Origin: Thysanoteuthis rhombus
Taxonomy: Eukaryota > Mollusca > Cephalopoda > Oegopsida > Thysanoteuthidae
DNA: 64,000 bases
Reading direction: 5' to 3'
Assembly: GCA_963457665.1 (NCBI GenBank)
Contig: OY735202.1
Coordinates: 52,117,281-52,181,280 of the forward strand
Part shown: one piece after another, positions 3,541-58,337 of the stretch
Layout of the letters: each line of letters opens with the position of its first letter
Position numbering within the stretch: the stretch's first letter is position 1
Made by a program: the position numbers and the translations under genes
The notes under the pieces: model-generated
What the model saw: only the letters and a program-made list of their open reading frames with translations
The model's database searches: none
What the model was told of the DNA's origin: nothing

Positions 3541-4205
3541 CAGGGAAAGCTGGTCAAGTTGGCCTTCACATTAACTTCAGCAAAACAAGGGTCATGTACA
3601 ACAAACATGTTGGAAATAAACATACAACAATGAAAAATTTTTTTTTTAATTTTTTAAATGAAAATGCAAAGCTGGAGAAAGTAGACTACATCTAACTAGG
3701 ACAACAAATCTCCATGGAATCCTCAAAAGAAAAAGAGATCAAGTGAAGAATCACTCTAGGATAGAATAAGCTCAACCATCAAGAACAAGAAAATCCCATT
3801 AGTCCTTTAAAGAAGAGTACATAACCAATGCATCCTCACGATAGTCATCTATGGAACTGAAACATGGAAGCTAACCAAGAGACAGACCCTCAAACTGAGG
3901 AATATGCAATGGGCACATGAAAGAATCATCCTCAACCTCACATGGTGAGACCACAAGACAGTATAGTATATCAAGGAAAAAACAAGAGTCCAATACATTA
4001 TAGAAACCATTAGGAAACTCGAATGGCAATGGGTTGGTCATGTTAGTCATAGCAGACATCAAATGTGGAACCGAGACCAACAAAATATGAGATGGCGAAA
4101 CAAACTGGATAAATATATGCTCCACAACGCCCATGATAGAGAGGTATGGCAAATTGTGGGGAAGGTGTATGTCCAACAACAGACAATAAAAGACTGATGA
4201 TGAAA
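3512..4205 (+). mobile_element. RTE-type LINE, 5'-truncated 3' fragment
   Basis: The conceptual translation, interrupted in several frames, matches the C-terminal part of the reverse transcriptase polyprotein seen in the copy at 55.6-58.3 kb. Recognisable pieces are INFSKTRVMYNKHVGNKH, then a segment like ILTIVIYGTETWKLTKRQ, then ERIILNLTWRDHKT, then KLEWQWVGHVS. The element ends at about 4195-4205 in AGACTGATGATGA, the GAT-type tail typical of RTE LINEs. The reading frame is broken by stops and indels and by a T-rich insertion near 3638-3656. There is no endonuclease and no catalytic FADD box, so this is a dead, 5'-truncated copy. Confidence 0.85.
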
Positions 4206-6779: not shown

Positions 6780-7580
6780 ATAAAACATACATTTCAAGGA
6801 TTGAGAAAAAAAGAGATTATTGGACAAACAGTCGATATCTAGTTATATGTGAAAACTTTTAATCTGATTTCTCAACATTCTTTAATTTTTTTTGCTGTTT
6901 TTGTCCTGAAATAGAGACAAGATGTTTGAATCTTGATAATAATCATTTTTCTGATTTCTTTGTGTCAGAAATGTATGGAAAAATATGTTCATTTGTCTCT
7001 GTATATTGTTCACTTCACAAGTCATGTGATTTTCTATCTTTCCAGTGTCTAGATTTGAACTTCATGGGACATTATTTCAGCTTGGGAACAGACAGAATCA
7101 TAAAATAGATGCTTCAAGGCTAAGAAAAAACTGGTATCAGAAAAAAATCAAGGGGTTTCTCATAAACCTACTTTTTTGACTCTACTAAGCAACTAATGAA
7201 TTGAAAAAATTGTATGATTCAGTGGGAATGTAACAAAAAACAGGACACCAACTTTCAAGCTTTTTGTGTTATATATTCATGTTCACATCTGTACAGAGTC
7301 AATGCCAAAACTTGCTAAAACAAATTTTGATTTTAAAAAATGAGAAGTGTGGTGCTTTATTAACAATTTTTTCCCTTCTATCACTTGAAACATTGAGATT
7401 GTGCAGAAAATTACTGAAGCTAAGCAGGGAGATAATGGAGTAGCAGTGAACTCAGTGGATAGAGGTAAGAAAATTCAGAACCTTGCCAATATAAGCCAGG
7501 TTCAAATGCAGTTGGTGCTAGAAAAAAACAACCATGATTATTGTTCCATTTTTTCCCCCCACAACCAGCTTTTGCCATGT
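6780..7580. other. No gene recognised
   Basis: Short open frames at 6926-7108 and 7401-7601 have no domain. A block near 7060-7130 (CATGGGACAT .. AATCATAAAA .. TTCAAGG) resembles 6712-6800, so the mariner flank may be partly duplicated. Confidence 0.4.
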
Positions 7581-7584
7581 TGCT

Positions 7585-7945
7585 ACATATGTGATCATTA
7601 GAATGAATAAAATTTTTGACATATTTGTTTAATAAATCCCACCCATTATATATGTGATCAATAGAGTGAATGAGATTTTAGACATATTTATTTAATAAAT
7701 CCCACCCATTATATATGTGATCATTAGAGGGAATGAAATTATTGACATATTTGTTTGATAATTCCCATCCATTATATATATGATCATCAGAGTGAATGAG
7801 ATTTTAGACATATTTGCTTAATAAGTCCCACCCATTATATATGAGATCGTTAGAGTGAATGAAATTTTCGATGTATTCATTTAATGAATCTTACCTGTCA
7901 CATGTAATTATTCAAGTGAATGAAAGTTTTGAGATATTGGATAAC
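7585..7945 (+). repeat. 63-bp minisatellite, about 5.7 copies
   Basis: The anchor GTGATCATTAGAGTGAAT recurs at 7591, 7654, 7717, 7780 and 7843, exactly 63 bp apart, with a decayed sixth unit from 7906. Each unit continues GA(A/G)ATTTT(T/A)GACATATTT and ATAAATCCCACCCATTATAT. The exact period with point differences between units shows true tandem duplication. Confidence 0.9.
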
Positions 7946-8350
7946 ATCAACCAAAACTGTCAATATAGGTTCCTTCAGTTTTTTAGTTGGTCTGGCTGGC
8001 TATCTATATATCATGCATACAAGATGCACCAATGGAGCTAGATGTATGAAAATTCAAAACATTTATCCCTTATTATGTCTATTATAAAAAAACATTTTTC
8101 TTTTGATTTTTAAAAAAATTAGCCCCCAAAATAGGTTTTAAGTGGGGATATCAATTTGAAATGTAAGTTTATGCTAAATTAGTTCCTGAGTTTATGTAAA
8201 GGAGTACTCATACTAGTTTTTTGAAAATTCAGACTTTTACAGTGATCACTGCTCAACAAAAGGTGAGAGAAGTAACTGATTCATTGATCACCTCCTTTTC
8301 CAATTTTTTAATTGATCACTCCTAACATGGTATGCTACTTAAACACATTG
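7944..8350 (+). repeat. Dispersed ~450-bp repeat family, copy 1
   Basis: Shared blocks across the family are CAACCAAAACTGTCAAcATAGG, TTGGTCTGGCTGGCTAT, TTACTCCTTATTATGTCTA, a run like TAAGTTTATGCTAAATTGG, AAAATTCAGACTTTTT, GTGATCACTGCCCAACAAAA, and a run like TGATCACCCCTAACATGGCA. Other copies lie at 18042, 33648, 41288 (this orientation) and at 15462, 44600, 60465 (reverse). There is no obvious ORF, RNA-polymerase III box or TIR, so the class is unknown. This copy starts where the 63-bp minisatellite stops. Confidence 0.75.
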
Positions 8351-15461: not shown

Positions 15462-15760
15462 GGTCTGGTTAGCGACTTAATAGAAACAGTCACAAGACCA
15501 ATGCCTTCTGGCAGCATACCCTGTTGGGGGTGATTAATTCAAAAACTGGAGAAAGGGGTGATCAATGAATAAATCATTTCTCCCGCCATTTCTTAGGCAG
15601 TAATCACTGAAAAAGTCTGAATATTCAAAGAAACAAGTGTGAATGCTGCTGGACACAAAATAAGGGACCAATTTAGCATAAAATTACATTGCTAATTGAG
15701 CTCACCATTAAGAACTTATTTTGGGGCTAAAATTCCAAAAAACAAAAACATAATGAGTAA
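15462..15760 (-). repeat. Dispersed ~450-bp repeat family, copy 5 (reverse)
   Basis: Read on the minus strand it shows the family blocks: TTTAGCATAAAATTAC complement, the ACTTTTTCAGTGATTACTG equivalent, and the TGATCACCCC..AACAGGGTATGCTGCC end. It retains the GTTTCTATTAAGTCGCTAAC end, which some other copies lack, and lacks the far 5' part. Confidence 0.7.
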
Positions 15761-16186: not shown

Positions 16187-16750
16187 TATCATCATCATCA
16201 TCATCATCATCAGTCTTTTAACGGCCGTCGTTGGACATAGACCTTCCCCAGGATTTGCCACACTTCCCTATCATGGGCATCACGGAGCCAGTACCTCCTG
16301 AACTTGTCTAGCTCGTCTCTCCATCTAACATTTTGCCGGCCTTGGTTGCGCATGTGGTCTCAGGGGATCCATGTTGTGAGTCGCGGTCCATCGATTGTCT
16401 GCCATTCTTGCAACATGGCCAGCCCACCGCCATTTGAGATTTTTTATGGATTCTATGATGTCCCTAACTCTTGTCTTTTCTCGGATGTACTGTGCTGTTT
16501 TGTGGTCTCTCCATGTGAGGCCCAGCATTATTCTTTCATGTGCACGTTACATGGTTCTCAATTAACGGGTCTGTCTCTTGGTTAGGTTCCATGTTTCAAC
16601 TCCATAAGTAACTATTGGGAGGATGCATTGGTTATACACCCTTCTCTTTAGGATCAATGGGATCTTTTTGTTTTTGAAGGTTGAGCTAGCTCTGCCAAAG
16701 GCTTGCCATTCCAGTATGATTCTTTGCTTGATTTCTTCTTCTTTTACTGT
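16187..16750 (-). mobile_element. RTE-type LINE, 3'-end fragment
   Basis: It begins at 16189 with a (CAT)n/(TCA)n tract, the complement of the GAT-type 3' tail, and runs in parallel with the first ~550 bp of the LINE at 55617-58337. The minus-strand frame 16325-16528 reads MLGLTWRDHKTAQYIREKTR and then LKWRWAGHVARMADNRWT, the conserved C-terminus of RTE-type polyproteins. The copy is truncated upstream near 16750. The C-terminal frame is better kept than at 3.5 kb. Confidence 0.85.
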
Positions 16751-24999: not shown

Positions 25000-26360
25000 G
25001 TTGAGGCTAACATAGATTATCTCCCTTGAAGATCAGATTTCTCATATCGATACTATCCCTAATTAGTGCATAGAATAGAAAACTAAAAACAGGAATATGA
25101 AAGAAATTTCTTGTGGATTTGGACTGAAGATCATTAAAATCTCACAAACATATATAAATTATTTAAAATGTGGATTATCGTCTATATCTACCTGGTAAGA
25201 GGTATCTCAATTGATAAAGAGAACCTCTGTATATTATTACTCTTGTCTATATTCACTTACACACTTATGTTTTGCCAAATTGGTTATTTAGCAAATCATA
25301 AATACATACATGGTTTTGATTTGATCAAAAGTTCATTTAATCAAAACAGGGATACAAAACAAATATTTTTCACAATCAAAAATTTTTGTAATGAAAGTGA
25401 AACAAAACTTTTTAACAAAAAATAAGTAAACTTCACTATTAAGGTAATTTCACCGATTCCATGTTAAATATTGAGACATTATCCAAAAACATTATCTTCT
25501 GCCAGTTTTTTTTAATATCATTAATTGTTTAATTAGGTTATTGGCATGCAAAAGCTCAAAATCATTCAATACAATGCATAAGGCCTAAGACTAAAACTTT
25601 TAATATGATTGCTAGGTACTTGATATTTGTTACATTATTTTTACATTTTTTGGACAATTGTCAGTTGAACCACTCCTTTTTTAATCTTTTGACTCTATCC
25701 AGTGCCTAAAATGGGTCAACTAGGCCCAAAATGGTTGCACATGTGTGCAAAATTCACATATGGTTTTCCCTTTCGCAAAATAATCTGTGTGGTCTGCAGT
25801 GGCTCTCACCCTGATAATAATGATCTGATTTCCATCTATTTCTATAAAATGCTAAAAGTCTGATTCACCCAATCCAATCTGACATGCATACTCAATGGAC
25901 CTTGGGGAAGGTTTTAAAGTCAAGTATATATGACACCAAAAGGCAAACTAATAACCATTATTGAATCACTTTCAACTTTATTTCGCTTCTTTTCATAGTC
26001 ACAACATTGAAAAATATAAGAGACTAGTTTGACCAATTACTGAAGAGTACCAAATTTGTAAATGAGTAAGCAACTATTTATAACTGCAAATTTTTTTTTT
26101 TCTGAATTTATAAAATGGGTCAATTAATTAGTATTTTTTTCTTGAAATACCATCTGCTGTGACTATTCAAATTTTACATTTTTCATAATTTTACAAGCTT
26201 AAATGGATTTTGTCAAATTCTGCTTTGGTTCTGGGATGTGATTTATGTAATTAGTGCTGCAGCCGAGGAGGTGAAAGAGTGACCAACCCCTACTTGTGGT
26301 AGATTGAAATGAAACTGGTCTCAGATGTAAGGTATGGCTGTCTATTATTAGAATATTGGG
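25000..26360. other. No gene recognised
   Basis: An 85-codon plus frame at 25168-25425 has no domain. The TTATCTCCCTTGAA motif is at 25017-25030. Confidence 0.4.
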
Positions 26361-26367
26361 TTTGTAC

Positions 26368-26900
26368 TTATCTAAAAAGTGCACAATCATGCATCTTAAC
26401 CCCTTTTCTACTAATGATCAATTACTTTTAACCACAATTCCATTATGCTTTTCAAAAACATAACTTTTTGTTCTTATCTAAAGAAGGCACAAACTTACAT
26501 TTTATCCCTTTTCCTCTCAATGAGATGTGGCTTGCTTGAAAATGGTATATTGACATTTTGTCCTCTTCTATCCCAAGATAATTTTTGTATTTCACTGTTA
26601 TGCTTGAATTTCTCACAATAGGACAACCTAAACAAGACATGATGGGGGGCTAAATTACCATATTGATAATTTTAGGATGGCATTTTGGACATTTACTGAC
26701 AACTTTTCGAGAATCTTTTGTCATTTTTCTATAGAAATGCTCTATTTGCCACTGTAAGGCACTGTTTTCCATGAAACTATTGATATTATTGATACATCGA
26801 TAATTACAAAGCAATACAAGCCCATCAATATGGAGAGGTCAGGTAACAGAGAGGCTCATCCATAAAAATATTGGTTTGGGATGAGTTGGTGTAATAATCA
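26368..26900 (-). repeat. Left arm of ~0.5-kb inverted repeat
   Basis: The reverse complement of this arm matches 31340-31835 at very high identity over long runs. Examples are ATTATCAATATGGTAATTTAG, CACAATAGG..CTAAACAAGACAT, and GGATAGAAGAGGACAAAATG on the other strand. It carries the block TTAGATAAG(A/T)ACAAA twice near its outer end. Inner similarity fades towards 26900. It brackets the decayed coding region at 27.2-30.2 kb. Confidence 0.85.
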
Positions 26901-27204
26901 TTCATTTTCCACTTTCTTTTCTATCATAAAAATAATAAATTACCCATCAATGAAATCACCTCATGTAGTAGTTTTAAATGAATCATGTTTTTAACTAAAT
27001 TCATTATGATAAATGTAAAAGTGTTTTTTTTTCAATAAGTGATAATTATTCTTAATGTGCAGATATCAGTAATATCAATGTTTCATCTCAGTCCTAAGAA
27101 TCCAATAAACAAGATGGCTCATTTCAACAGTGTTCACATTTGAGTCCTGCTTGGACATATGCTTGATTGGAGACTTGTTTACAGTCACCATCTTTTAGTA
27201 TAAA

Positions 27205-30150
27205 TGAGTGATGTCTCTGGTGGATGTTGTTTCTTGGGTCAAGTCCAGGGGTTTCATGGAACCATCTACAATTGGTTGGTTCATTCAATGCTGGCTTAGT
27301 GACACCAAATCAATGACTGGTACGTGGCTCTGTGAGCACACTATACAAAGGCATCCTCTGAGGGAGGCAGCTGCCTTATCTTTAGTAGTTGCATAGAAAT
27401 GCTGTAATTCGTCTAGTGTCTTACACCTTTTCCTTAGTCATCATTCCTTGGCTACAATAGCAAAGAAGGATCACCCGGACATTTGCCTTATCATACCAGA
27501 TGATTGTTTGCCAATACTCAGGGGCCAGATGTACTGCATGCAGGACTATTCTGGCTACCTTCTCGACAGCTGAAATAATCATTGATATTCTTAGGACCAT
27601 CAGAAGATACCATAACCACTCTCTGACTATCTTTGAACCCTCCTGCAAGTATAAGCAACTTTCCGCTTAGGATGCAATCCTTGGTAATGCCCACCACGTA
27701 TATGCTAACCAATTCTGCCAAATATGGTTGGTTTCCAGCTCATTTCAAAAATTGTCTGAAGTGTGGCACTGTCCCGTCTTCAATGATACAGTGGTATTGG
27801 GTTGTGAGCATGTCTGTCGCTAAGGCTGCATGACACTAATGCCCATCAGACCTAATTGATGAAACCCATACATGTGAAACATTAGTATGAGCATGCTGAC
27901 TTGGTAGGTATGATTTTTCAAAACTCAAATCAACCTTTTTGTGATTATTTCTCCCAGATCATTGAAAGTTTTGAAGTGATTCTTATTCAGGGTTTGAAAC
28001 ATGGCCATTCTATCAACTATGTTGGCTGAGTTGGCATTGTCTTAGCCAGATAGTAGATGAAGAATCTCATTGGTTATTGATTTTAGTTTCTTTGCCAAAT
28101 CTGCTTTTTTGGTCTTCCTCCAGCACCATCATCATTAAAGAGACATGGAGGGATGCATGGTAGCTCATATGAGAGCACCTTTTTTAGATTAAAATCCCTG
28201 ATCCTAGCAACTGCCATCAAGTGTCAGAAATGCAATTTTGTATTTGTGATCTTTTTCTCCTTGTCAGAGCTTAAGCGCATCTTCATATCTGCAAATATGA
28301 AGACCAATTTCTTTGTTATAACTCTGCTTTTCTACTACAAATCTTTCATTGACAAACTTTTTAATTGCAATTGTTCTCTTCACTGGTAGTGAACAGAGTG
28401 ATTCCTTGACCACAGCTGAAGCCGCTTGGTCACTGATGATATTTACCAGCCATTCTGGAACTTCTGTGAGGTTCAAATGGAGCCTGGCAGTAGTCCAGGA
28501 TGAATCCTTCTTCTTTAGATACATCGGTTGCATCCTTGGTCATCCTCACATTCTCCAGCTACTCATGCTCCTTCCTGCTTTGTTTTGAGATGCACAAGCA
28601 ATTGAATGCCCCTGCATATTCGCAGGTTACAAGTTATATCAGTAGCCATCATTCCAAAGTCATTATCACCTTTAGCTTCTCAGTTTATGATCTACTCTAA
28701 GGCCTGGTCTGTTGAGACACGGTTGAATGTGGTTTCATTCTTTCTTTTAATGACAAATCTAACATTCTTCATGTGCTGATACCTGGCACGATGAGTTGAT
28801 TCCAACTTCTTCATCTCAAGTACATAGACAGGGGTGTACCTGATGTAGTTGACACTCCCATCTAAAAAAAAAGAATGGCACCATCTTCAAAACTGAATCA
28901 AGATGCAGCCAAAAGTCTGCCTCATGGTCTGCTGTCATCAGTCTAAGCAGTACTCATACAACTTCAAGGTAATTGTCCTGAAAAGCAAAAGTAACTGATT
29001 GATCCCTACCATCTTCTTAGAACCCTGTTATTGTACCCAACATCACAGACATTTGATCTTCAATTTCTAGAAATGTAGCTTTCACCATTGCTGAGTCCTT
29101 CTTGTGGAAACAAACATGATGAGTCCAATGGTTTTGTTATCAACCTAGAGTAGCACATTGACTCTAGCATTTATTTCTGCAGAGATCTGGTAAAGGTGCA
29201 TCAATGCTACATGTACTATCTTCACTTAACAAAGTGCCTGTGCGTAATGCTTTCCTTGAAGCATTTGGATTAATGATGATGTTGGAAAAAGCCCGGAAGG
29301 AATAATCTCTTGAAGGTCACCATCACTGAATAGTTTACTTATTGAAATAATGAATGTCATGATCAGATGCATACAACCTAATCTCATAGTCAGCTTACCA
29401 TCAAGCTGTTCTAGATTGCTCCATAGTATATGCTGCACCTTGCTATAAATTGCCATATCTACTGTCACAAGGATATGTTCTTGTTGTAATCAACACCAAT
29501 TTCAACAGTATTGTGAAAATGGTTGAAAAATTAGATGGTGGTGCATGACTGAATGGCAGGTATCTGATAGTAGTCACTGAATTGTAAATGGAAACATAAA
29601 GTATATTAAACCCACTCTATCTCAGAACAGATGACTTCTCACTCTTCAATTTCTATACTCCCATATCAAGTCCTTCAACTGAGATAAAATGTAGTTCTCA
29701 TCTTTTTGTGTCTCGGATACAGAGATATTGGATGCCCTTGGTAATTTTTCTTTTTTTTATTGAATTCGGTATACTGTTGTATGTTAGGTACTTCATACTC
29801 TGTCACATCCAACGACTTATCTCCAGTAAGTGCTGGTGAAGAACAACCACCATGCAATGGGTAGAGGATTTGCCATCTATTATATCTTCATTACAATCGA
29901 ATATGTCAATTGCTGCATCTTTAGTCAAATCAAGTCCTCACTGTCAAATAGTTATATACGTAATGGAATGTAAATTTCTGACCTGGATAGCTGATCTTTT
30001 GCTACTGAAGTAACAAAACACAAAGTTTCATTATACAAAACAGTGTAACCAATATTCATCAATGTGTTCTGATGCGTGAAAGGCATTAATGTACACCGAC
30101 AAACAAAATCAAGTAATATGGCTGGCACAAATGCTTTGTATTAATCAATC
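27205..30150 (-). pseudogene. Decayed copy of a multi-copy uncharacterised protein family
   Basis: Segments in order along the minus strand, in changing frames, are: VTTIRYLPFSHAPPS (about 29.55 kb), DMAIYSKVQHILWSNLEQLDG-like text followed by KLTMRLGCMHL (29.33-29.46 kb), MTADHEADFWLHLDSV (28.9 kb), YIRYTPVYVLEMKKLE (28.8 kb), LHLNLTEVPEWLVNIISD (28.45 kb), ILAGGFKDSQRVVMVSS (27.62 kb), ARIVLHAVHLAPEYW (27.53 kb) and QLPPSEDAF (27.35 kb). I recognise this order from a large family annotated only as 'uncharacterized protein' in cnidarian, mollusc and arthropod genomes; its function is not known to me. The E..ARIxLHA and YDxANVxVxLL parts recall the acidic motifs of PIN/FEN-type nucleases (inference). 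The copy has many frame breaks and cannot make the protein. No introns are evident, which suits a mobile or retrocopied origin. Confidence 0.75.
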
Positions 30151-31339
30151 TTAAGATGTCCACTCAGTAAATACTCAAGTGGAAAGATTTTCCTTCAACT
30201 ACCTTTTTCAAAATTCCTGCTGCTCTGTAACACTGCCTTCTTTCAGTTTTGTCTATATTTACAAAACTTACACACAACATAAACCAACAAAGAATAATAA
30301 TCATTTAATCATATATTTAGTGGATTGGGAAAATAGCAGGAATAAAATTTTAAAAATTAAAACAATCAGAATTTGTGATACACTCCGTAATTTTTATCAA
30401 CTAAAATGAAAAAATTCAGTCAGATCTAGAGAGATAGCTTATTTGGCAACCCAATCCATGAATACCATCAAAAACAATTTGCTATAGAGTTTATCTCTGT
30501 GCCACCCTAGACTTTACGAATCCACTCCCTCAACTTGGTCTCTTCAGACAGTGATACAAAGTAATACTTGGGTTATCAAGATCGAAAGGCGCCAACTCAT
30601 GACCTGGAGTTGTCAATTTCAGATGGAGATGGGTTACCAAACAAGTACGACATAATGTATCTCAGACAAAGCATAGTTGCCAATATAGCTCTTTTTGGAG
30701 CTAGATCTAGCTACTTTTTGGTACATTTGATTTTCAAGTCTGTAACTAGCTCTTAGCTTCTTTTCAAATTATTGAACATTTTTCTTAGTATATTTTCCTA
30801 TTTATAAAATGATTTATTAATTCATCAATTTTGATTAAGATTGAAAATTAAATATATTTTCGGCTACTTTTGCTTGACTCCCTGACAAAGATCTCCCACT
30901 GCAGAAGAAGTGTTATCAGTCATCCCATGTCACCCCATCAACCAATATCATTGCACACCTGCAAACCCACTCATGAGAGGTGATCAAATTGCATATCCCA
31001 TGCAAAACTGACCCATTCATGTGATCTCAACTTCTAGATGGAAATTTTCTAAGCCACTAACATCTGTTTCCACATGGGCTGACTCTAGGGGTCATCCTTT
31101 TCAGCTGTGCAGATGTTACATCTAAGTATTATTGAACTCAGGACCAGCTATTCACACAAATATTTCAAATTTAGCTTTTAACTAGCTTGAAAAAACCCAT
31201 TATATAGATTAATTCTTTTTGCATTTGTTAAAAGATTCAATTCAATTTTAGCCAAAATACCATAACAAGTATTCTACTTTTTTTTTTTTTTCTACAAATC
31301 TTCTAAGACACCTCTGTACTTGCTGTATATTGGTATAGT

Positions 31340-31835
31340 GTACAATATCCATGGTGTCACAATTATCTGACTTCTCATCTAGAGATCCCTCAAAATTGAT
31401 TGATTTTTATGGCTTAGTAATTATCAATATATCAATAATATCAATAATTTTACTGGAAATATTACCTTACAAAAGAAAATAGAGTATTTCTATGAAAAAA
31501 TGATGTCTAAAATGCCTTCCTAAAATTATCAATATGGTAATTTAGCCCCCCATTATGTCTTGTTTAGGTTGCCCTATTGTGAGAAATTCAAGCATAACAG
31601 TGAAATACAAAAATTATCTTGGGATAGAAGAGGACAAAATGTCAATATGCCATTTTTAAGCAAGCCACAGCTCATTGAGAGGAAAAGGGATAAAATGTAC
31701 GTTTGTGCACTTTTTAGATAAGAACAAAAAGTTATGTGGTTGAAAAGCATAATGGAATTGTGGTTAAATGTAATTGATCATTAGTAGAAAAGGGGTTAAG
31801 ATGCGTGTTTGTGCACTTTTTAGATAAGTACAAAA
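31340..31835 (+). repeat. Right arm of ~0.5-kb inverted repeat
   Basis: It is the partner of 26368-26900. Near its outer end, a ~115-bp unit is duplicated in tandem: TTTGTGCACTTTTTAGATAA at about 31702 and again at about 31808, each followed by G(A/T)ACAAAAAGTTATGTGGTTG. The left arm has a similar but shorter duplication. Subterminal tandem repeats of this kind are common in DNA transposons. Confidence 0.8.
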
Positions 31836-32284
31836 AGTTATGTGGTTGAAAAATATAATGCGTTTAAAATCTTATTTTAGTCAATATAAACAGCAAAAAG
31901 TTTTTGCAAAGATCAAATTATGGTTAAATTTAACTGCTTCAAACCTAGTATCCATACCAGCTTACCATTTACTTAATTGCTTTAAATTCCTTAGACAAAA
32001 TAAAAACAAAGTTCAAAGTATTTAATAATATCTATGAGCTATGAGAAACAGGGTAGTAGCTGGAGATTTGAGGGCTAGTGGGTGTTGGTTCTTTCAGGAT
32101 TCTCTCCAACATTTAGTGAGATCTGCTCTTGTATAATGTTAGTAGGAATACAGTAGGGGAACTACTATTCATTAAGTTTTTGTCCACTTTTCCATTTGCT
32201 TCCCACTCCCCATATTTAGCTAATACCTCACTCTGAGACACAACATTCATGCATCTTCTGAAAAACAGGAAGAATAATATGAAT

Positions 32285-32575
32285 TATTATATTATAGTGC
32301 GAAATAGAGCATTTCTAGGAAAAAATAACAAGATGTCCTTAAAAAGTGGCCAATGAAGGGTTAAAATGCAGTCCTAAAATCATTAATATAACAATTTAAC
32401 TCTCATAGTGTCTTGTTCTGGTTGTCCTATGAGAGAAATTCAGACAAAACAGTGAGATGCAAACATTAATGTGGGATAGAACAGGACAGAATGTCGATAT
32501 ATGATTTTGAAGAAATCCATGACTCATTAGTAGAAAAGGGGTTAAAACGATTGTTTGTACACCTTAGATAAGCAG
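32285..32575 (+). repeat. Third, diverged copy of the inverted-repeat arm
   Basis: GAAATAGAGCATTTCTAGG, CCTAAAATCATTAATATAAC, GTGTCTTGTTCTGGTTGTCC, GGGATAGAACAGGACAGAATG-like text and ATTAGTAGAAAAGGGGTTAA follow the arm order in the same orientation as the right arm. It lies alone, with no second coding region beside it. Confidence 0.7.
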
Positions 32576-32589
32576 AAATCCAATAGTCC

Positions 32590-32985
32590 ATTGATGGACA
32601 ACCACACCTTTCATTTTTCTAAGGCTCTTTTTGAAGCATGGCTGATGCACTGAATTAATAGGAAGCATTGATTGAGAATGAAGAAGCTTAAGGAGTCAGC
32701 GTGTATTGTCTTGTCAGTCAGGTGCATGCGTCAGGCTAATATGAATGTTAGCTCCATGCAGTTTTGATTAAAAAGGTGTTAGGGAACTTAATTTGGAATT
32801 GCCTGGGTACATAGATGGTGGTATGGTTATGTCTGTGTACCTAGTACTGCTGAAATTGACTCATTTAGTTGGTATATCCATGATCATCTTTTTCTGTAGC
32901 AATTTTCAAGAAGAAATATGCATGCCTCAGGGAGGTGTAATGGTTAGAAAGATAGTCTTGCAGTTTTCCATGTATCTATCTATAT
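32590..32985. other. No gene; weak tRNA-like A box near 32935
   Basis: GGAGGTGTAATGGTTAG at 32933 resembles a SINE A box, but I find no B box at the right spacing. No coding signal. Confidence 0.35.
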
Positions 32986-55610: not shown

Positions 55611-56096
55611 TTCCCAAGATCATCATCATCAGTCTTTCAACGTCCGTCGTTGGAGATAGAATTTCCCCAAGATGTGCCACACTTCTCTATCATGGGCGTC
55701 GCGGAGCCAGTACTTTCAGAATCTGTCTAGCTCGTCCCTCCATCTAATATTCTGTCGGCCTCGGTGGCGCATGTGATCACGGGGGATTCATGTCGTGAGT
55801 CGCGATGTCCATCGGTTGTCCGCTATTTTTGCAACATGTCCAGCCCACTGCCATTTGAGTTTTTTAATGGATTCCATGATGTCTCTGACTCTAGTCTTTT
55901 CCCGGATGTACTGTGCTGTCTTGTGGTCTCTCCATGTGAGGCCCAGCATAATTCTTTCATGTGCACGTTGCATAGTTCTCAGTTTGCGCATCTGTCTCTT
56001 GGTTAGGTTCCATGTTTCGTAAATGACTATTGGTTATACATCCTTCTCTTTAGGATTAATGAGATCTTCTTATTTTTAAAGGTTGAGCTTGCTCTG

Positions 56097-56582
56097 CTAA
56101 AGGCTAGCCATCCTGGTGTAATTCTTCGCTTGATTTCTTTTTCTTTTAAGGGTCTCATGGAGATTCGTTGTCCTAGGTAGATATATTGATTTACTTTCTC
56201 CTGTTCTGTGTCCTCGATTTTGATCTGTGTTTTTATCTCCGATGCGGTTGTTACACATGATCTTTGTCGTGCTGAAGTTCATGTGTTGGCCGACTTTCTT
56301 ACTCTCTTCATTTAATTCATCTAGCATTAGTTGGTGGTCGTGTAGGTTCTCTGCGAAAAGGGCAATGTCGTCTGCAAATCTGAGGTTGCTCTGATACATG
56401 CCTTTGATTCTAATCCCTTTACCCTCCCAATCTAGCTTTCTGAAGATCATCTCGAGGCAGGCTGTGAAGAGTTTTGGTGAGCTGGTATCACCCTGTCTTA
56501 CTCCTTTCTGGAGCTGAAAGGGGTCCGAGTTTTTATGTAGCCTGATAAAGAAGCTGCTGTGATTGTATATATGTTTCAGCAC
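56097..56582 (-). pseudogene. LINE reverse transcriptase, C-terminal half of RT domain
   Basis: This 161-codon open stretch contains GVRQGDTSSPKLFTACLEM (RT motif 4, canonical RQGDPLSP with P changed to T), then NLRFADDIALFAENL carrying the catalytic F-A-D-D, then MNFSTTKIMCNN (the K-T..M motif of the palm end). It continues in other frames to RKLRTMQRAHERIMLGLTWR and LKWQWAGHVAKIADNRWT at 55788-55991. Non-LTR retrotransposon RT copies its own RNA at a nicked chromosomal target. The catalytic residues are intact in this piece but the full polyprotein is not. Confidence 0.85.
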
Positions 56583-56677
56583 TTCGACATATACTGGATC
56601 TATACCTTGTCGTGTGATGGCCTCAATGACCTTCGGAATTTCTACTGAGTCGAACGCTTTTTTGAAGTCGATAATTG

Positions 56678-57715
56678 CTACGGCGAGTGGTAGTTGATAT
56701 TTGCAGCTTTTTCTTTGAGCTGATTTATCGAATGCAGGTGGTCCATGGTCGAGTAGCTTCTTCTGAAGTTAGCTTGCTCTCGTGGTTGGTTTTCATCGAG
56801 AGTTTTTGTGATTCGGTTAGTGAAAAGTTTGTATACGCAGTTGAGTAGGCTTATAGGCCTGTAGTTGTCGAGGTCTTTCGGATTTCCTCTTTTGTATAAA
56901 AGCATTGTGATAGTAGTGTTCCGGTCATCTGGGACTTTATTGTGTTTTAGACACAAGTTGAAAAGGACGGCCAGTTTCCTGGTGATGATCTTACCCGCTT
57001 TTCGGAGTAGGTCAATGGTGATGTTGTCTGGTCCAGAGGCAGTTCCTTTCTTCGTCTGTTTAATGGCTTCTTTCACCTCCCACGGGGTTACTTCTGGGAA
57101 GTCATCGAGTTGATTGCTCACGTCTTGCGTATCCTGTTTATTGTTCTGTAGTCCTTGTTTTGACGAATAAAGTTTTTGGTAGCATTTTTTGGCACGTTCG
57201 ACAATCCTGTCTCTGTTTGTTGTTAGATTTCCATTTTCCTCGAGTATGCTAGTTATTTGCTTTCGTACTGAGTTGAGGTCTTTGTTTATAGCTTTGAAAC
57301 CCCGACCTCTTTCAAGATTCGATTCAATGACTGCCGTCGTGTATCTCCTTCTGTCTTCCTTTCGTTTTTTCTTGATTAATTTGTTTAGTTCAGCCTCTTC
57401 AATTTTCTCTCTTGTTGTCGGTGGCTCGAGGTTTCTGCGTTTTTCCATAATATTTCTGGTTTCGTTTGAGATTTTAGTAATGGGTTGTGAGCTCATTGGT
57501 TTGAATATAGTAGCGACTTCTATCGTAGATGCTGTCATTTGGTTAAGTTCGTTGATGTTGGTATCGTCTCGTTCAGTAAAAATTCTGAATCTGTTTTTCA
57601 GTTCGAGCTTGAAAGATCGAGCGTGCTCTTTTGGTATGTTTAGAGGTTGCGGTTTTGTGTGGAACATTTTCCTGCGTTCTTTGTTGGTGTTCACTTGCAT
57701 TTTACATCGTACCAT
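56678..57715 (-). pseudogene. LINE polyprotein, end of endonuclease through RT fingers
   Basis: This is the longest open frame in the window (345 codons). It starts within the last endonuclease motif (..GSDHRMVRCKM), passes through a ~170-residue charged linker (EKRRNLEPPTTREKIEEAEL, KKKRKEDRRRYTTAVIES), and enters the RT domain at EVKEAIKQTKKGTASGPDNI. It then has KRGNPKDLDNYRPISLLNCV (RT motif 2) and EQANFRRSYSTMDHLHSI (motif 2a/3). It ends by a frameshift near 56690; beyond it, another frame reads AIIDFKKAFDSVE with the first catalytic Asp. The start Met is not a true start, as the protein begins in the upstream endonuclease. Confidence 0.85.
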
Positions 57716-57729
57716 TCTGTGGTCGCTGC

Positions 57730-58337
57730 CTACATTGACTTAATTCAAAACTTGGATGTCCTTGATGATATCGTTTTTGTCTGTTAAGATGTAGTCTATT
57801 TCATTCTTTGTTTCGTGATTGGGGCTCTTCCAAGTCCATTTCCTATTGGGTCCCTTCTTGAAGAAGGTGTTCATAATTTTGAATCCATTAGCCGTTGCAA
57901 AGTTTACAAGATCTTCTCTCTTGTTCCGTACTTTGTATTCGAATTTGCCGACGCGATCTTCATTTTCATTTCCTTGTCCTTACCTGTGCGTTGAAGTCTC
58001 CCATGATGACATTGGAGTGTTTTCTGGTGTCTTGGAGTAGGGAGTTCAAATCATCATAAAAGTTGTCGATTTCCTCTGGCGAAGTGGGAGCTTAGACTTG
58101 GATTATATTTAGTTTGTATCTCTTTGAAAGTTGTATGGTGACGCTAGCTACTCGTTCAGATATGGCTTTGAAGCCGGTTACATTGTCTTTGAGGTTCTTA
58201 TTGATGAGAAAGTCTATTCCACTTTGTTTTACTTTCTCTTTTCCGTAGCTGTAAAGAAGATGCCAGCTTCTCAGTTCAATTAGTTCTTCTCCGGGTCTTC
58301 TTACCTCGCTAATGCCTATGATATCCCACTTGACATT
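57730..58337 (-). pseudogene. LINE apurinic-type endonuclease domain, partial
   Basis: Minus-strand segments are DIIGISEVRRPGEE (catalytic E of the EEP fold), YAPTSPEEIDNFYDDL (metal/phosphate-site region), NVIMGDFNAQ (the GDFN motif) and KNEIDYILTD followed by VNVGSDHRMV (catalytic SDH). This is the target-nicking endonuclease of RTE-type LINEs. It is interrupted by stops and a frameshift and lacks the N-terminus. At its 5' break the plus strand shows a T-rich run (58335-58350). Confidence 0.85.

Follow-up and report, generated by a model that had tools for sequence, protein, structure and literature searches.

Organization of the window element

The window analysed here is the whole 64,000-nucleotide stretch of Thysanoteuthis rhombus DNA, C5:52117281-52181280 in a host genome of 2.73 Gb and 514 contigs (about 48 apparently of chromosome size, judging by their length) that was searched throughout this work. 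It holds a decayed minus-strand gene enclosed by inverted repeat arms. Arms and gene form one element of 6,401 bp, at 26252-32652, with defined tips, terminal inverted repeats (TIRs) and a 3-bp target-site duplication (TSD). Its features are as follows.

26249..26251, no strand: left TSD, AAT, directly before TAGTGC and equal to the AAT at 32653-32655
26252..26840, plus strand: 3' terminal arm (TIR), with the tip TAGTGCTGCAGCC... and then the arm body (tip model match 26254-26364, E=8.6e-23)
26362-26417 and 26468-26839, plus strand: body of the 3' terminal arm (arm model matches)
26361-26417 and 26467-26523, plus strand: subterminal units of the 3' terminal arm (repeat comparison)
26361..26692, plus strand: probable gene-conversion tract, paired with 31503-31834 at 95% identity (about 78% immediately inward)
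27127..30140, minus strand: relic protein-coding gene with frameshifts and stops (homologous pieces in the same order in other copies)
30140-29955 and 29937-29806 (AAIDIFDCNEDIIDGKSSTHCM), minus strand: gene pieces 1-2, N-terminal
29489-29229 (VTVDMAIYSKVQHILW...), minus strand: gene piece 3
28953-28819 and 28886-28695 (NYIRYTPVYVLEMKKLE...), minus strand: gene pieces 4-5
28539-28267, minus strand: gene piece 6
28128-27928 (SANIVDRMAMFQTL), minus strand: gene piece 7, nuclease-like start
27739-27424, minus strand: gene piece 8, nuclease-like middle
27437-27288 and 27309-27127, minus strand: gene pieces 9-10, the latter C-terminal
31384..31860, minus strand: inner 5' arm, tip-less, with units at 31672 and 31778; likely conversion partner
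32239..32652, minus strand: outer 5' terminal arm (TIR), whose tip is the reverse complement CAGTGCATCAGCC... (arm model match 32239-32576, E=1e-86)
32576-32650, minus strand: tip of the outer 5' arm (tip model match, E=2.1e-9)
32653..32655, no strand: right TSD, AAT

Two segments flanking the gene, 26361-26692 and 31503-31834, are 95% complementary over 332 nt, and a weaker extension of the pair (26721-26840 with 31384-31503) is 78% complementary over 120 nt. Each of the 95% arms carries two copies of a unit of 57-83 nt, spaced 106 nt apart (repeat families D2 and D3). These data confirm an earlier sequence-only reading of this DNA, which had described inverted repeats of about 0.5 kb with subterminal tandem repeats; the decayed minus-strand coding region with the peptides that it quoted is likewise present between the arms, at 30140-27127 and in three minus frames. 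The element ends that it proposed, 26368 and 31835, were not borne out. When 26 arm ends were aligned, homology extended past 26361 and stopped at about TAGTGCAGCGGCCAGG, a shared tip, and the tip model placed the left end of the window element at 26252 and its right end at 32652. The right tip is part of a third arm copy, near 32292-32565 (74-76% identity); because this tip belongs to the third arm, the element runs from 26252 to 32652, which makes 31384-31860 an inner, tip-less arm copy. Tips mostly read TAGTGC or CAGTGC, giving termini of the form YAGTGC..GCACTR, and nine elements have tips at both ends.

On the 5' side of the gene, seven other copies (L006, L008, L017, L018, L021, L023 and L034) likewise pair an outer, tipped arm with an inner, tip-less one, and both arms are present in L003, where no gene piece was found. 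Two arms on the 3' side occur in some copies, L041 and L054 among them. Tips were found on the outermost arms only. The duplication of the unit at 106-nt spacing was seen in the window copy only, the other scanned arms having one unit or none detected, with the exception of L055, where two units lie 69 nt apart. Facing tip matches, at 1212 and 1967, occur in L007 with no gene piece, and gene pieces were likewise not found in the fetched flanks of the arm loci C1:49.29M and C17:29.24M; some gene-less arm loci, L007 among them, look non-autonomous. Divergence from the arm consensus averages 0.235 by the Kimura two-parameter (K2P) distance (17 arms).

A target-site duplication of 3 bp

The TSD was assessed in nine elements with both tips found and an end that could be placed, the end being the base before AGTGC; elements with a truncated tip (L007, C13:10.96M and C10:5.46M) or a missing one (C42:35.08M) were left out. 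At a length of 3 bp, 17 of the 27 positions match across the element, where shuffling gives 7.0 (p=0.0002); the duplication is exact in three of the nine pairs (AAT, which flanks the window element on both sides, TCT and ACC; p=0.004). One end of the C1, C15 and C140 elements had been set by eye to the base before AGTGC, and the six pairs that remain when these are omitted still match at 13 of 18 positions (p=0.0014). The six include C46, whose right end was moved by a few bases to an exact CAGTGC string and which counts against a duplication. Without the window copy, the match is 14 of 24 (p=0.0004). Lengths of 2, 4, 5, 6, 8, 9 and 10 bp were at background (p=0.45 for 9, p=0.81 for 10). A search for further complete element pairs to add to this test found none. 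At 3 bp, therefore, the family has the TSD of fixed length that marks a TIR DNA transposon.

Arms and gene recur together

The left arm, used as a query, gave at least 45 genome matches (40 of 189 candidates scored), an 87-aa gene piece gave 39 (all 69 candidates scored), and a second gene piece, from another copy, gave at least 98 (150 of 238 candidates scored), about half of which belong to a distant class at about 26-38% identity. A gene piece lies within 6 kb at 15 of 36 arm loci, that of the window included, where 0.01 would be expected; the gene places in this count were the 39 matches to the 87-aa piece and 28 same-family matches (at least about 43% identity) picked from the 98, weaker or duplicate rows having been dropped. 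Reciprocally, an arm or tip lies within 1.5 kb of 23 of the best 30 of the 39 matches to the 87-aa piece; of the 55 arms and tips so placed, 53 face the gene, and the two that face away are at L024 and L037. A control of 85 kb contained a single arm or tip match, on L047, itself listed as a 43% match to the family. Because arm and gene piece each recur in the genome and recur together, chance is unworkable as an explanation. The sequence-only reading had suggested that a long-TIR DNA element may carry the family and that a genome search for arms with short target duplications would bear on this; inverted arms at most of the gene loci examined, 23 of these 30, together with the 3-bp duplications of the nine-element test, support that view.

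The relic gene and its protein family

Protein pieces from different copies align in one order. The longest open frame among the genome matches listed is 265 aa, against about 1,000 codons in the relic span, and thus no intact copy was seen among those scored. In the copies read, the frame is interrupted inside the nuclease-like part. Conserved acidic residues in the N-terminal half stand in a plausible order by eye; they may form a DDD/E core, with a candidate D...D...E order. The C-terminal half carries a series of nuclease-like motifs, which opens with YIVDGMAMIQAL (majority sequence) and proceeds through LILVFDRYDCV (L039) to FSFQEEANTRIVLH (L041), YFICQDEANTKMVL (L039) or NSHEDADTR (L027), with the cores QEEANTR, DEANTK and HEDADTR. 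It continues with TIIWTDDTGILVILL (L027), which contains TDDTGILVILL, and closes with LTGCDTTNSL (L027) or GCETTNSLFEIRKKTAL (L028). We read these motifs as counterparts of the acidic motifs and of the helix-two-turn-helix in FEN1/XPG nucleases, and predict a FEN/XPG-like nuclease domain in this half of the protein. Part of the same motif order is present in a distant lineage, L042 (LILHAAYATENGASSIMLHSPGADIFVLA...ALSGSDNTTC).

Distant lineages of the protein family (L042, L043, L044, L045 and L046) occur in the same genome, at about 26-33% identity, and all are broken in the stretches read. With L043 as query, at least 149 matches were obtained (150 of 463 candidates scored), and its nuclease-like start gave 49. 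Window-type arms were not found in the 3.5 kb fetched per locus at L042-L046. No viral Pfam family reached the cut-off on the relic gene pieces (one gene followed), and a search of viral contigs returned no relatives. An Ssu72 protein, the best of eight weak PDB matches (E 0.018), was not believed.

Probable arm recombination and arm-derived satellite DNA

The 3' and inner arms of the window element are far more alike than their counterparts elsewhere. Identity between the 3' and inner arms is 95% over 332 nt and falls to 78% over the next 120 nt, with homology continuing (tract versus inner flank, Fisher p=8e-7 on counts rounded from percentages), and both arms carry the duplicated unit at 106-nt spacing. 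The same comparison was made in six other elements: in five (C15, C13, C46, C7 and C18) the arms are 67-77% alike over 198-222 nt, and the sixth (C10:5.46M) aligned over 18 nt only and falls outside that range. The simplest reading of the 95% identity is a gene-conversion tract, formed after insertion between arms that lie 4.8 kb apart.

At C11:21241081-21279795 (L098, L076, L065 and L077), an arm of another copy, apparently its inner 5' arm, has given rise to a satellite array with a 125-bp unit. Two stretches of the array were read, 21241081-21247000 and 21268500-21279795, and neither is interrupted; probes find it at 21247000, 21255000 and 21262000 and not at 21238000. If unbroken, it is about 39 kb long, with about 310 units. 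Units are on average 96% alike in one 9-kb stretch. The array ends about 250 bp before the gene piece at C11:21280048 and lies 5' of that gene relic. A genome search with two units, in which 39 of 113 candidates were scored and the array itself was not listed, so that its counts are lower bounds, found only one equally similar sequence (96-97%), a fragment at C11:21464513 that is about 220 bp long, the other matches being 74-84% alike. On a smaller scale, the gene-bearing copy L037 contains, at 2300-2628, a 61-bp tandem repeat of 5.3 copies, which derives from a different part of the arm and corresponds to arm model positions of about 253-318.

The arms of this family are unusually recombinogenic. 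The sequence-only reading had taken the third arm copy as a sign that the arm itself is mobile or recombinogenic; the latter stands, given the probable conversion tract in the window and the satellite array at C11, and separate mobility is not supported, the third arm being the element's own 5' terminus in an arrangement that recurs.

Interpretation and alternative explanations

The window element is probably an old and broken copy of an autonomous cut-and-paste DNA transposon, closest to AcademX within the Academ superfamily, which we consider the best placement because a predicted nuclease and a 3-bp TSD are combined. A transposase encoded by the gene would have bound the inverted arms, cut at the YAGTGC tips and joined these to target cuts staggered by 3 bp, leaving the 3-bp duplication. 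It would have been a single long protein, in which a candidate transposase half is followed by the FEN/XPG-like nuclease domain and a Cys-containing tail, and the nuclease may help to process ends. Recombination between arms would have followed insertion, gene conversion having homogenised the 3' arm and the inner arm in the window.

Several observations weigh against this interpretation. An exact 3-bp duplication is absent in six of the nine pairs (three match at 2/3 positions, two at 1/3 and one at 0/3), although inexact duplications are expected because the copies are old, as the mean arm divergence indicates; a TSD length of 7 also gave p=0.018, which we take as chance among nine tests. 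The sequence-only reading had named family members without arms, and arms found mainly without the gene and at random spacing, as observations that would speak against a mobile element. No arm was found within 1.5 kb at seven of the 30 gene loci, including that of the window, where the arms are more distant, and the lack of arms is not general; for 21 of the 36 arm loci, the match lists contain no nearby gene piece. As to the protein, no single copy has all nuclease-like motifs in one frame, and these were judged against FEN1/XPG motifs. All Pfam models stayed below the cut-off on raw window pieces, pieces from other copies and majority pieces, the best sub-threshold matches being to unrelated families and taken as chance (IFT52_GIFT on L043, E=0.0016; IP_trans on a window piece, E=0.005). 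PDB sequence searches gave no convincing relative, with one chance-level match (E 0.83).

The failure of Pfam would also suit a TIR DNA transposon of a different or unnamed superfamily, whose protein is unrelated to Academ transposases and whose nuclease-like motifs are convergent or misread. This possibility deserves to be taken seriously, though we favour it clearly less: 3-bp TSDs are also given for Harbinger and EnSpm in the available part of one source (PMC12730594), but that text has CAC at the tips of EnSpm where YAGTGC is found here, and the order of nuclease-like motifs recurs in several copies and partly in a distant lineage. Slightly more doubtful still is an animal DNA-transposon superfamily outside Academ that combines a transposase with a FEN/XPG-like nuclease and whose inner and outer arms repair and re-copy each other so easily that individual insertions become hot spots of conversion and arrays of satellite DNA; most members of the large "uncharacterised" family would then be transposon proteins. 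That the arms form a separate foldback-like mobile unit bracketing the gene, with the third arm as an independent insertion, would account for the arm loci without a detected gene and for tandem arms; it is unlikely, since the outer-tipped and inner-tip-less 5' arrangement recurs in seven copies and tips occur on the outermost arms only, where the 3-bp TSD fits. We give marginally less weight to a young element at 26361-31834 nested in an older one as the source of the 95% identity. Its arms would be alike and would both carry two units, as observed, but homology to other copies crosses the left edge through tip and arm, the right flank of the inner arm resembles, by eye, the arm flank of the C11 copy, and identity drops just inside the tract while homology continues. 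A host gene family of the usual kind, multiplied by segmental duplication and accompanied by the arms only incidentally, is scarcely credible: the gene is multi-copy with homology extending beyond it, yet this homology ends at a common tip among the aligned arm ends, the duplication fits 3 bp, and L007 is a short gene-less copy with facing tips. We rejected it on the tips and the TSD.

The analysis links a protein family below all Pfam cut-offs to a mobile element whose ends and target duplication are defined, and therefore many "uncharacterised" gene models of the same type might be reclassified as transposons. This one genome contains several diverged lineages of the family, and every copy scored or read is broken. 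The arms also provide a worked example of transposon ends seeding tandem and satellite DNA.

Other repeats in the window

A LINE-like (long interspersed nuclear element) reverse transcriptase with an FADD motif lies at 56097-57739 on the minus strand, where two frames of 223 and 353 aa overlap. The stretch beside its end, 55619-56148, has further copies at 16200-16746 and, in inverted orientation, at 3687-4203. A 63-bp tandem repeat at 7521-7898 appears as five overlapping 126-nt matches at 63-nt spacing, with 61-89% identity to the reference copy. A dispersed repeat with a core similar to GTGATCACTGCCCAACAAAA is found at 8217, 18289, 33910 and 41486 and, inverted, at 15541, 44671 and 60537; the left flank of the insertion at C10:60.32M has a comparable core.

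Comparison with known transposons

The AcademX lineage of the Academ superfamily was reportedly defined by Kojima in 2020, and its nuclease is presumably of the XPG type. Double 5' arms and satellite growth are not known as Academ traits. Subterminal repeats, present in the window element, are also a feature of EnSpm/CACTA elements. In the accessible passage of one study on another superfamily, AcademX elements are described as encoding a nuclease and having TSDs of 3 or 4 bp (PMC10045372), a range that includes the 3 bp found here. By that description, AcademX would resemble the window element in being a TIR DNA transposon with a 3-bp TSD and an encoded nuclease, the latter predicted in the case of the window element. 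AcademH shares the superfamily name and the TIR architecture; it differs by a helicase and by TSDs of 9 or 10 bp, lengths that were at background here, and the same passage suggests that the differing TSD lengths of the two lineages are tied to their differing enzymes (PMC10045372). In the portion available of a mollusc survey, Academ elements with long open frames are given for bivalves only (PMC10294476), and in that of a paper on Octopus vulgaris repeats "Academ" occurs only inside a publisher's name in the references (PMC13282606).

EnSpm/CACTA elements, as far as the excerpt goes, share the 3-bp TSD and end in CAC..GTG (PMC12730594), termini that the window element, with YAGTGC..GCACTR, does not have. 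KolobokP, as described in part of its report, is likewise a DNA transposon with long, recombination-prone terminal repeats and has an accessory nuclease, as predicted for the window element; these are direct, whereas those of the window element are inverted (PMC9587614). Satellite growth from a transposon arm is of a kind already known from Tetris, a foldback element of Drosophila virilis, in which, by the section of the paper at hand, tandem repeats within the TIRs gave rise to satellite arrays of kilobase size (PMC4079207). Tetris is apparently non-autonomous, with repeats of about 220 bp, whereas the unit here is 125 bp and derives from an arm body beside a gene relic.

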